NCBI GenBank assembly: GCA_029718625.1
Contig: CM056380.1
Location: 47,765,576-47,829,575 of the forward strand
Source of the DNA: Synaphobranchus kaupii
Lineage: Eukaryota; Chordata; Actinopteri; Anguilliformes; Synaphobranchidae
Reading direction: 5' to 3'
Length of the DNA stretch: 64,000 bases
In this document: piece by piece, positions 59,119 through 63,753 of the stretch
How the letters are laid out: every line of letters begins with the position of its first letter
How positions within the stretch are numbered: the stretch's first letter is position 1
Program-made: the position numbers and the translations under genes
Notes under the pieces: model-generated
Databases searched by the model: none
Told to the model about the DNA's origin: nothing
What the model saw: only the letters and a program-made list of their open reading frames with translations

Positions 59119-59160
59119 AACGAACTGGCGCCGACTGGCAGCCAGCCGAAAGACTATATA
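59119..59160 (-). promoter_or_regulatory. LTR core promoter and predicted RNA start, element 2
   Basis: TATATA (59155-59160) lies about 31 bases upstream of GCCAGTTCGTT (minus strand, 59129-59119), the exact complement of the primer binding site at 63743-63753. The same relation holds in element 1. Confidence 0.72.
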
Positions 59161-59419
59161 GAGCTAACTAACGAGACAAAATACGATACAGGTGTGAACA
59201 TAAACCGGGAGTGATTACAAGACACCAGGTGAGGAAATGCATGCAACGAGGGGGAGGGAGTGAAAGGCGGAAGTAAGACAAAACAACCAGACGAACAAGA
59301 CAGGGAAGGACACGCCTAGTCCGCGGCAGCGGGGAAAACACGGACAAAGGGATCCAACATGACACGGAGGGAAAACAGGAAAACACGGAAAACGGACAGG
59401 AAGGGAGCGGAACATTACA

Positions 59420-59434
59420 GTACCCCCCCCCTCA
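59420..59434 (-). other. Polypurine tract joined to pol stop codon, element 2
   Basis: In element orientation TGA (59434-59432) is followed by nine G, TAC, and the LTR start TGTAATG. Plus-strand primer for reverse transcription; two G longer than in element 1. Confidence 0.85.
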
Positions 59435-62400
59435 ACGTACGCCACCTGGCGTACCTGGCGGCCTGGTCTTGGATGGGAAGCGACTGTGGAAATCCTGGAT
59501 TAGTGTTTGATCCAGGATGAGGCCCTTGTGGAGCCATGACCGCTCCTCAGGACCATACCCCTCCCAGTCCACGAGGTATTGGAAACCCCGACCCTTACGG
59601 CGGATGTCGATGATGCGGTCCACCGTATAGGCCGGGGCGTTGTTGATGACCCGGACAGGAGGAGGAGGGAGGGTAGGGGCACTGAGGGGGCTGGAGGCGA
59701 CAGGCTTGATTTGGGAAACATGAAAAACGGGGTAAACTTTGAGGGAGGCAGGGAGGGAGAGCTTGACGGAAACAGGGTTAACAAGACGTACAACAGGGAA
59801 GGGACCAATGAACCGGGGCCGAAGCTTTTTAGAGGAGGAGGGAAGGGAAATGTTGGACGTGGACAACCAGACCTGCTGACCGGCCCTGTATTTGGGGGCT
59901 GCGGTCCTGTGCAGGTCCGCCAGACGCTGTGACCGGGAATTGGAACGTAGGAGTGCGGTGCGTGCAAGCCTCCAAATGCGCTTGCATTTGAGGATGTGGG
60001 CCTTGACAGAGGGGACTGCTACCTCGGCCTCCTGGACCGACAGGAGAGGGGGTTGGTACCCTAACGAGCACTCGAAAGGGGATAACCCGGTGGAGGTACT
60101 CTTAAGGGAGTTGTGAGAGTACTCCACCCAGGGAAGGAAACGGCTCCAGGAGGCGGGGTTGCGAGCCGTGACGCACCGCAGGGCGGCCCCCAGGTCCTGG
60201 TTCGCCCTCTCTGCCTGGCCGTTCGACTGGGGATGGAAGCCAGACGAAAGACTGGCCGAGGCCCCCAGGGCTACACAGAACGCCTTCCAGACCTGGGAGG
60301 AGAATTGGGGCCCACGATCCGACACAATATCGGAAGGGATCCCGTGCAGCCTGACCACATGTACCACCAGGAGCTCCGCCGTTTCGAGGGCGGACGGGAG
60401 CTTGGGGAGGGGAATGAAGTGAACCGCCTTGGAGAACCGATCCACAATTGTCAGAATGACAGAGTTGCCCTCTGACAACGGCAGACCGGTTACAAAATCC
60501 ACCCCAATGTGGCTCCAAGGACGGCCCGGGACAGGGAGGGGAAGGAGATGACCAGAGGGAGGCTGGTGGGAAGCCTTGCTCCTGGCGCATACAGAGCAGG
60601 CCAGGACAAAGGCACGGGTATCCTCCTTGAGGGTGGGCCACCAAAAGCTCCTCCTGACGAGGGCGGTCGTCCTGGCAACACCTGGGTGACACGCCAGGCA
60701 GGAGGCGTGAACCCACTCAAGGACCTGGGAGCGGACGGAGTCGGGAACAAACAGGGAGGGGTTAGGGTTATTACGGGGGTCAGGGTGGGAAGTCTGGGCG
60801 GACCTCACGATCTCCTCAATCCTCCAGGAGACCGCAGCCACCATACAGGACGCTGGAAGAATGGTTTCGGGGTCAGCAGGACTGGAGGGAAGGGAAAACA
60901 CACGGGATAAGGCATCCGCCTTAATATTGCGGGAACCGGGGCGATAGGACAAAGAAAAATTAAACCGGGCAAAGAAAAGTGACCACCTAGCCTGTCTAGC
61001 ATTTAGCCTTTTGGCAGACCTTAAATAAATTAAATTCTGGTGGTCAGTTAAAACAACAAAGGGGGTACCTGCCCCCTCCAGCCAGTGGCGCCACTCCTCA
61101 AGAGCCAGCTTAATGGCAAGAAGCTCCCGATCCCCGACATCATAATTTCGCTCAGCGGAGGACAGCCTCCGGGAGAAAAAGGCACAGGGATGGAGCTTGT
61201 TGTCCAAGGCGGCACGTTGGGACAGAATGGCCCCCACGCCGGTGTCGGAGGCGTCCACCTCAATCGTAAATTGGCGGGAGGGATCAGGGTGGCAAAGAAT
61301 AGGGGCTGAGGAAAACCGTGTTTTGAGCTGTTCAAAAGCACGCTGGGCTTCGGGATTCCAACAGAAAGAAAAAGTAGTGGAGGTAAGTTTGGTAAGGGGG
61401 GCAGCAATGATACTGTAATTTCGGATAAAACGACGATAGAAATTAGCAAAACCAAGGAATTGTTGTAGGTGCTTACGAGAGGTGGGTTGGGGCCATTCCG
61501 TCACCGCCTTGACTTTGACTGGATCCGCCCGGATACTGCCCTCCTCAATAATGAAGCCGAGGAACGGGACTGAAGAGACGTGGAAGGAGCATTTCTCCGC
61601 CTTTACGAAGAGCTGGTTCTCGAGGAGCCGCTGGAGAACCTCCCGGACATGGAGAATGTGCTCCTGAGGGGACTTGGAAAAAATCAAAATGTCGTCAATG
61701 TAAACAAAAACAGTCTTACCCAACAGGTCTCGCAGTACGTCATTTACCATGCCCTGGAAGACTGCCGGGGCGTTAGTAAGGCCGAAAGGGACCACCAGGT
61801 ACTCATAGTGGCCCAACGGGGTATTGAAGGCAGTCTTCCACTCATCCCCCTCCCGTATGCGCACCAGGTGGTACGCATTACGGAGGTCGAGCTTGGTAAA
61901 AATGACGGCCTGCGAGAGGGGTTCAAAAGCAGTGTTAATGAGGGGGAGAGGATATTTGTTGCGGATAGTGATGGAATTGAGTCCCCGGTAGTCGATGCAG
62001 GGCCGTAGTGAGCCGTCCTTTTTCCCTACGAAAAAGAACCCAGCACCAACCGGAGAAGAGGAGGGACGGATGATGCCCGAGGCGAGGGACCCATGGATAT
62101 ATTCCTCCATGGCGAGTTTCTCTGGTCCCGACAGACTGTAGAGACGGCCGGACGGAAGTTTGGCTCCCGCCAATAGATCAATACAACAGTCGTACGGGCG
62201 GTGAGGAGGTAGGGACAGAGCACGTGATTTAGAAAAGGTGCGACTGAGGTCGTGATACTGTTTGGGAACGGTGGACATATCGGGTTCGGGTAGGTTGGTG
62301 CTGGGATTCTTGGACCCCGGAGGGGGAAGCGCGGAGCGGAGACAGCTAGCCAGGCAGTGGCCACTCCACGCCAGGATGCGTCCGCCCTGCCAGTCGATGT

Positions 62401-62842: not shown

Positions 62843-63735
62843 GACCTGGATCGCTGACGACGTTGGCGCTCTGCAGAGTTGACCGCAACTCTGCCCAGTT
62901 GCATGGGCTCCTCTTCGGAGACCCCAGACGCCGCCCTGAATCCAGAAGCAGAAGGGTGAGAGCGTATATGAGGAAGGTGACCGGGATTCCCCCCACGCTC
63001 ACGGGCCCGGATACGAAGACGGTTGTCGACTGCTATGGCCAGGCTAATCAGGCTATTGAGGGAGGTTGATTCCTCACGGGTGGCTAGTTGGTCTTTGAGC
63101 TCCTCGCTGAGTGCCTGGCGGAAAGCCCCCTGAAGGGCGGTGTCGTTCCATCCGGACTCCGCGGCGAGGGTACGGAATTGGATGGCCATCTCTGCGACGC
63201 TGCGACTCCCCTGACGGACCTGAAGTAGGCGCTGAGTTGCATCTCGCCCACAGGTAGGGTGGTCAAACACGCGCCGCATCTCGGCGGTGAAGGCAGCGAA
63301 GTTGTTGCAGAGCGCGGCTTGGCTATCCCAGATGGATGTAGCCCACTCCAGGGCACCTCCTCCCAGGCTGCTCATGATGAACGCGATCTTACATGGGTCG
63401 GAGGCGAAGGAGGAGGGCTGCATCCGGAAGACAATGTCGCATTTCATCAGAAATTCGCGACATTTCCCCAATTCCCCGCGGAATAGCTCAGGATGTTGAA
63501 CGCGAGGCTCACGAAATGAAGCGGACACAGGAGGGTCCGCCGGGGGATCCGGTGCGGGCGGTGTAGGGCCCAATGGAATACGCGGAAGCGGCTGGTGAAG
63601 AGACAGCTGCGTAACTTGTTCCGTGATGCCCCTCAGCACTTCCAACACGTCGTCCAGACGACGGCCCTGTTGGTCGCTGACCGCAGTTTGGCAGGAGAAG
63701 GCGTGCCGAATCTGCTCCAGGTCGGCTGGGTCCAT
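62779..63735 (-). CDS. gag: Gag polyprotein, element 2
   Basis: 318 codons, starting 19 bases after the 5' LTR. Same layout as Gag of element 1: an N-terminal heptad-like segment (residues 1-45), a proline-rich linker (about 48-72), a capsid region (ELFRGELGKCREFL, LGGGALEWATSIW), a basic linker, and a CCHC knuckle at C299, C302, H307 and C312. It is nine residues shorter, mainly in the linkers and at the C-terminus, where the stop comes three codons earlier relative to the knuckle. Intact; particle formation and RNA binding are inferred from the family. Confidence 0.94.
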   Translation of the reverse strand: MDPADLEQIRHAFSCQTAVSDQQGRRLDDVLEVLRGITEQVTQLSLHQPLPRIPLGPTPPAPDPPADPPVSASFREPRVQHPELFRGELGKCREFLMKCDIVFRMQPSSFASDPCKIAFIMSSLGGGALEWATSIWDSQAALCNNFAAFTAEMRRVFDHPTCGRDATQRLLQVRQGSRSVAEMAIQFRTLAAESGWNDTALQGAFRQALSEELKDQLATREESTSLNSLISLAIAVDNRLRIRARERGGNPGHLPHIRSHPSASGFRAASGVSEEEPMQLGRVAVNSAERQRRQRSRSCFYCGKPGHQIASCPIRPKE

Positions 63736-63742
63736 GTTTTTG

Positions 63743-63753
63743 GCCAGTTCGTT
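63743..63753 (-). other. Primer binding site, self-priming type, element 2
   Basis: AACGAACTGGC one base after the 5' LTR end, identical to element 1, with its 11-base complement at 59119-59129 in the 3' LTR (the equivalent 5' LTR position is outside the window). Confidence 0.82.

Follow-up and report, generated by a model that had tools for sequence, protein, structure and literature searches.

Predicted self-primed reverse transcription in a Tf1/sushi-type retrotransposon of Synaphobranchus kaupii, with a co-varying stem around the primer binding site

The locus described here raises the question of which RNA primes the reverse transcription of the retrotransposon at its end, a tRNA of the host or the 5′ end of the element's own transcript. 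The window, i.e. the whole stretch of 64,000 nucleotides analysed, carries two related retrotransposons, both on the minus strand and designated element 1 and element 2 (Table 1). The answer developed below, drawn from sequence comparison, is that element 2 very probably primes its own reverse transcription with the 5′ end of its own RNA.

Element 2 and its primer binding site

Table 1 Positions of the two elements and of their features in the window
Feature	Position	Strand	Remark
Element 1	1 to about 5574	(-)	start of window cuts through the element
PBS, element 1	4364..4374	(-)	
Self-primer copy in LTR, element 1	5311..5321	(-)	
Element 2	58032 to beyond 64000	(-)	
3′ LTR, element 2	58032..59419	(-)	1388 bp, TGTAATG...CGTAACA on minus strand; direct repeat with 63755-64000
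Self-primer GCCAGTTCGTT, element 2	59119..59129	(-)	predicted first 11 nt of the RNA; 3′ LTR copy
TATATA box, element 2	59155..59160	(-)	first T at -31 from predicted RNA start
Polypurine stretch	59426..59433	(-)	few bases before 3′ LTR; putative role, from position
pol ORF	59432..62842	(-)	1136 aa; protease, RT, RNase H, integrase, Tf2-1-like SH3, chromodomain (Pfam)
gag ORF	62779..63735	(-)	318 aa; DUF4939, Retrotrans_gag, CCHC knuckle (Pfam)
gag arm of PBS-enclosing stem	63712..63734	(-)	start codon second base through codon 8
PBS AACGAACTGGC, element 2	63743..63753	(-)	one base after 5′ LTR end
5′ LTR, element 2, visible U5-side end	63755..64000	(-)	runs past window end
U5 arm of PBS-enclosing stem	63777..63805	(-)	helices counted on 22 copies

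Judged from its predicted domains, element 2 is a chromovirus, and it belongs with the Tf1/sushi kind of chromodomain-bearing Ty3/gypsy retrotransposons. Its pol presents the Ty3/gypsy order protease–RT–RNase H–integrase, the protease matches being weak and near the Pfam cut-offs, together with the SH3_Tf2-1 domain (E 4.1e-19) and, at the C-terminus of the integrase, the chromodomain PF00385 (E 6.5e-11). By the frame offset of the ORFs, pol is read at -1 with respect to gag, the arrangement of the non-yeast Tf1/sushi members, with the gag-pol frameshifting itself being putative. No gag relatives were confirmed in IMG/VR. The element looks young, the visible 246 bp of its 5′ LTR being 100% identical to the 3′ LTR; past the end of the window, where the 5′ LTR continues, the genome sequence reads N, and for this reason we infer the 5′ LTR copy of the self-primer. 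The R-U5 leader measures about 1.1 kb, and repeats of 72-74 bp occur inside the LTR (window 58222-58456), downstream of the predicted RNA start. Two further repeats of the window are a tandem array of a 19-bp unit from 51320 onward, with 63 overlapping copies of a 300-nt reference stretch, and a 102-nt inverted repeat whose arms (56249-56350 and 56847-56948) are 99% complementary and separated by 496 nt, which might represent a small DNA transposon.

Concerning the primer binding site, the earlier note had placed it one base from the LTR end and had pointed to an exact 11-base complement in the LTR, about 31 bases after a TATATA box. These observations hold to the base: in the element sense the 5′ LTR ends at 63755 and position 63754 is the sole base between it and the PBS; the exact complement is, more precisely, that of the 3′ LTR; and TATATA runs on the element strand from 59160 to 59155, its first T 31 nt before the G at 59129. 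The PBS is hence complementary to the predicted 5′ end of the RNA, as in the Tf1/sushi elements. The 11-mer occurs four times in the window, against 0.04 expected from dinucleotide shuffles, as two PBSs and two LTR complements, all within elements 1 and 2. By arithmetic, the chance of an exact 11-mer complement anywhere in the 1,388-bp LTR is about 3e-4, and that of one no more than 3 nt from the predicted start about 2e-6.

The conventional alternative—priming at the PBS by the 3′ end of a host tRNA, the LTR complement being incidental—is considered very unlikely. The PBS does contain a TGG, at bases 8-10, and according to the available part of a plant survey tRNA primers are used by most LTR elements; the criteria given for tRNA priming are, however, a TGG 0-5 nt after the LTR and a 12-nt match to the 3′ end of a host tRNA (PMC6317226), and here the first TGG comes 8 nt after the end of the LTR, beyond that 5-nt range. 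The earlier note had also proposed a search for a better-matching host tRNA, and none emerged among 22 tRNA genes (20 distinct) read of 58 Rfam tRNA hits and covering only six isotypes (Thr, Lys, SeC, Cys, Arg, Gln), their 3′ ends matching over at most 4 nt and internal stretches over at most 6 nt. The bases past PBS position 12, moreover, differ between subfamilies. A genome scan for a tRNA-like pattern whose end supplies the bases required gave 479 places (seven exact) versus 791 for the reversed control, which is weak evidence because such a pattern has many chance matches.

Copies in the genome and co-variation of PBS and RNA start

The element family is abundant in the S. kaupii genome, where the PBS together with the gag start (21 bases) was found at 1,380 places with at most three mismatches, compared with 17 for the reversed control. 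The first sample was formed by the first 30 listed of these places, all on contig C1 and all chosen for an intact PBS; each of the 30 has exactly one exact complement upstream, 1022-1237 nt away and read in the 5′ LTR, and since the copies are related, these do not represent 30 independent cases. The second sample comprised 40 loci selected by an RT motif and picked for differing matched motifs among the matches listed. An automatic rule (at most three mismatches, before an ATGGA) recognised a PBS-like site in 29 of them; 19 of these 29 possess an exact 11/11 complement, as against 0/29 with the reversed string. The remaining ten cover one mismatch of CpG type (L034), two mismatches each that are G-U pairs in RNA (L062 and L071), a canonical start with a damaged PBS (L064), four loci with no start found in the stretch available (L038, L041, L056, L065), a locus misplaced by the automatic rule, with its PBS deleted and its start intact (L046), and a decayed copy (L051).

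The 11-mer is kept despite very different LTRs in L042, L059 and L070, with 380-634 nt from start to PBS, this distance ranging from 380 to 1386 nt for the exact pairs among the relatives. In L062, L071 and L077 the predicted RNA start in the LTR reads GCCAGTTTGTT, and their PBS changes leave only G-U pairs, so that the RNA duplex could stay whole. Copies of the family, or possible kin, were also seen at a regular spacing of about 5.4-5.9 kb (C28:925144-941475; C1:84033545-84051147; C3:35676893-35688632); they resemble tandem arrays with shared LTRs, the C28 stretch holding three PBSs among four LTR starts.

A search for PBSs with changes in bases 1-4, run with a single set distance to gag, returned 39 places, from which eight un-element-like ones were dropped and 31 kept. 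The type AAAG accounts for 20 of the 31, and all 20 show the matching CTTT start in at least one LTR—in both LTRs in 16 copies, only in the 5′ LTR in three and only in the 3′ LTR in one; L066 was read directly at both the PBS and the LTR start. This matched change was probably a single event inherited by one subfamily. Viewed from the LTR side, 34 of 57 CTTT starts stand beside a listed changed PBS, and none of 56 starts changed in other ways does so. The 11 other changed PBSs (AACA 5, AATG 4, AAGG 2) have no matching LTR change among the matches listed, in the one LTR context searched; four of the changed PBSs read directly (L079, L080, L082, L083) are accompanied by the canonical LTR start, leaving one mismatch, and L081 has no start within 1.23 kb. 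L079 and L080 had been candidates for start-less copies and were rejected as such, their canonical start, with its single mismatch to the PBS, being found further upstream. The CpG-type changes look like decay after insertion, given that changed starts other than CTTT have no listed changed PBS alongside. Decay by CpG does not explain the AAGG change; L082 and L083 share this non-CpG change together with a canonical LTR start.

Changes at PBS bases 5-8 were found at seven places, two of them element-like: L073, whose canonical start has one mismatch to the PBS, and L077, with two G-U pairs between PBS and start. The search for changes at bases 9-11 gave five places. L051 had been considered as a second compensated PBS (AACAAACAGG with CCTGTTTGTT), which turned out to be a chance match: its relatives L105 and L106 carry that stretch at another place, and their start, which differs from the canonical one by a single mismatch, follows a TATTTAA box further upstream. 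L051 was therefore removed from the primer argument; it was retained as one decayed row in the sets of 22 representatives used below, the stem counts being given also without it.

Concerning the shape of the pairing, the duplex is limited to 11 bp on both sides in 21 of the 22 representatives, neither flanking pair being formed; only the decayed L051, with its false site, departs from this. The primer of Tf1 is 11 nt long. With L051 left out, TATA-like hexamers—nine of them accepted, picked after the sequences had been seen—have their first base between -28 and -31 in 20 of 21 representatives, and at -22 in L042.

The U5-gag stem and the folding of the leader

It appears, with support from covariation, that a U5 arm pairs with the start of gag and leaves the PBS in the loop. 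The stem consists of 19 pairs, and 97.6% of its cells are paired over 22 copies versus 21-45% in slid versions, a control that favours the stem because the structure was derived from the same sequences. Independent of this bias are the paired changes: four pairs are changed on both sides, as exemplified by L059 and L070 with GGACTCA in gag and GAGTCC in U5, most others having GGACCCA and GGGTYC. None of 500 shuffles of the 22 copies was as good on four of five measures; on the fifth, the number of pair types, the stem was no better than the shuffles, 366 of 500 being as good. Without L051, the 21 rows are 98.0% paired with three pairs changed on both sides, and 0/1000 shuffles were as good (two measures tried).

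The primer:PBS duplex crosses this stem, and the two together would therefore form a pseudoknot. Single-structure folds were calculated for nine whole leaders; being nested, they are unable to hold a pseudoknot and must choose one helix. Among these nine, a likely primer:PBS helix is confined to the three short leaders with an exact pair (mean probability 0.91 in L059, 0.70 in L070 and 0.52 in L042); it is weak in the five long ones (0.000 to 0.26, with 0.028 in L001) and reaches 0.067 in the decayed L051. Five of the nine leaders show the U5-gag stem, with values of 0.43-0.94, and in L032, L059, L066 and L070 it is close to zero. Extra duplexes around the PBS have been described for Tf1 (PMC10085805, PMC4600332); in the 22 representatives, compared with mononucleotide shuffles, no second PBS-adjacent duplex with the stretch after the primer stood out (z below -2 in 2/22 on the gag side and 0/22 on the U5 side). 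The predicted fold of L008 has GGTTCGT, at the end of the LTR, paired with the PBS, a local hairpin that would compete with the primer; the other subfamilies are without it.

Two of the three bases of the gag start codon lie in the stem, and the region may thus have an RNA role beyond priming. This lends something to a second alternative, according to which the 11-nt pairing is real and serves packaging, circularisation or the control of gag translation, the primer being another one, e.g. a tRNA fragment; the paired site sits, however, exactly where minus-strand priming starts and the pairing is limited to 11 bp, so that we hold this explanation, too, to be very unlikely. A tentative idea, rather doubtful at present, combines the two roles: the leader may act as a switch in which the stem buries the two start-codon bases and holds the PBS in the loop, until primer:PBS pairing closes the pseudoknot, flagging the RNA as a template for reverse transcription and turning off the translation of gag; RNA pairing, in addition to the protein, would then conserve the start of the gag coding sequence. 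The weakest alternative, in which a short repeat is present by chance or common descent and does not pair at all, can draw on the relatedness of the copies and on the probably single origin of the compensated subfamily, but is made extremely improbable by the 20/20 match of that subfamily, the 11-mer kept amid very different LTRs and the 0/29 of the reversed control.

Proposed mechanism and comparison with known systems

Based on the above results, self-priming by element 2, as interpreted in the earlier note, gains support from the TATA spacing, the 11-bp limit of the pairing, the one compensated subfamily and the tRNA comparison over six isotypes. Transcription would begin at the G of GCCAGTTCGTT, as the TATA box suggests, and the first 11 nt, complementary to the PBS, would fold back onto it over the leader of about 1.1 kb, with the U5-gag stem, supported by covariation, presumably holding the PBS in its loop and completing the pseudoknot. 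By analogy with Tf1, cleavage behind nucleotide 11 by the RNase H of the element-encoded RT would next release a 3′ end, from which the RT would synthesise DNA into U5 and R. The primer being copied into the second strand, PBS and RNA start would stay exact complements at each round.

The novelty implied by the earlier note was overstated: self-priming has been shown for Tf1 and is already called common in, or has been proposed for, the Tf1/sushi group including its vertebrate members (PMC10085805, PMC6317226, PMC4600332, PMC3601003, PMC2864245, as far as the accessible parts of these papers go), and the same PBS or stem may already have been described for sushi-ichi by Butler et al. 2001. No paper on this eel element family is named among the titles and abstract openings screened. 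What is added here to known self-priming is the matched AAAG/CTTT subfamily and the co-varying U5-gag stem, the latter giving a specific model of the wider RNA fold that can be put to the test. An abundant family, a young-looking element 2 and a natural variant with matched changes together offer a vertebrate test of primer-PBS co-evolution.

Among the known systems, Ty3 of yeast uses a tRNA primer. With regard to solved structures, the best match to the integrase piece of element 2 is 7q5b (Ty3 of yeast), and its RT piece matches first 4ol8, with no Ty3 in its name, and second 7q5b. Closer in priming are Tf1 of Schizosaccharomyces pombe and its relatives Tf2 and Tj1, described, like element 2, as chromodomain Ty3/gypsy elements with a PBS complementary to the RNA 5′ end (PMC10085805, PMC4600332), whereas the gag of element 2 includes a CCHC knuckle and its pol lies in the -1 frame, the fission-yeast elements differing on both points (PMC10085805). 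The vertebrate Tf1/sushi elements, e.g. sushi-ichi of Takifugu, share with element 2—as far as their descriptions allow the likeness to be drawn—the fish host, the chromodomain, the -1 frame and the proposed self-priming (PMC10085805, PMC6317226). Finally, the ‘pretzel’ of Tf1 is composed of three duplexes, primer:PBS and two between PBS-adjacent sequence and the 5′ LTR (PMC10085805); the U5-gag stem of the present family fits one of these two additional duplexes, the other not having stood out.
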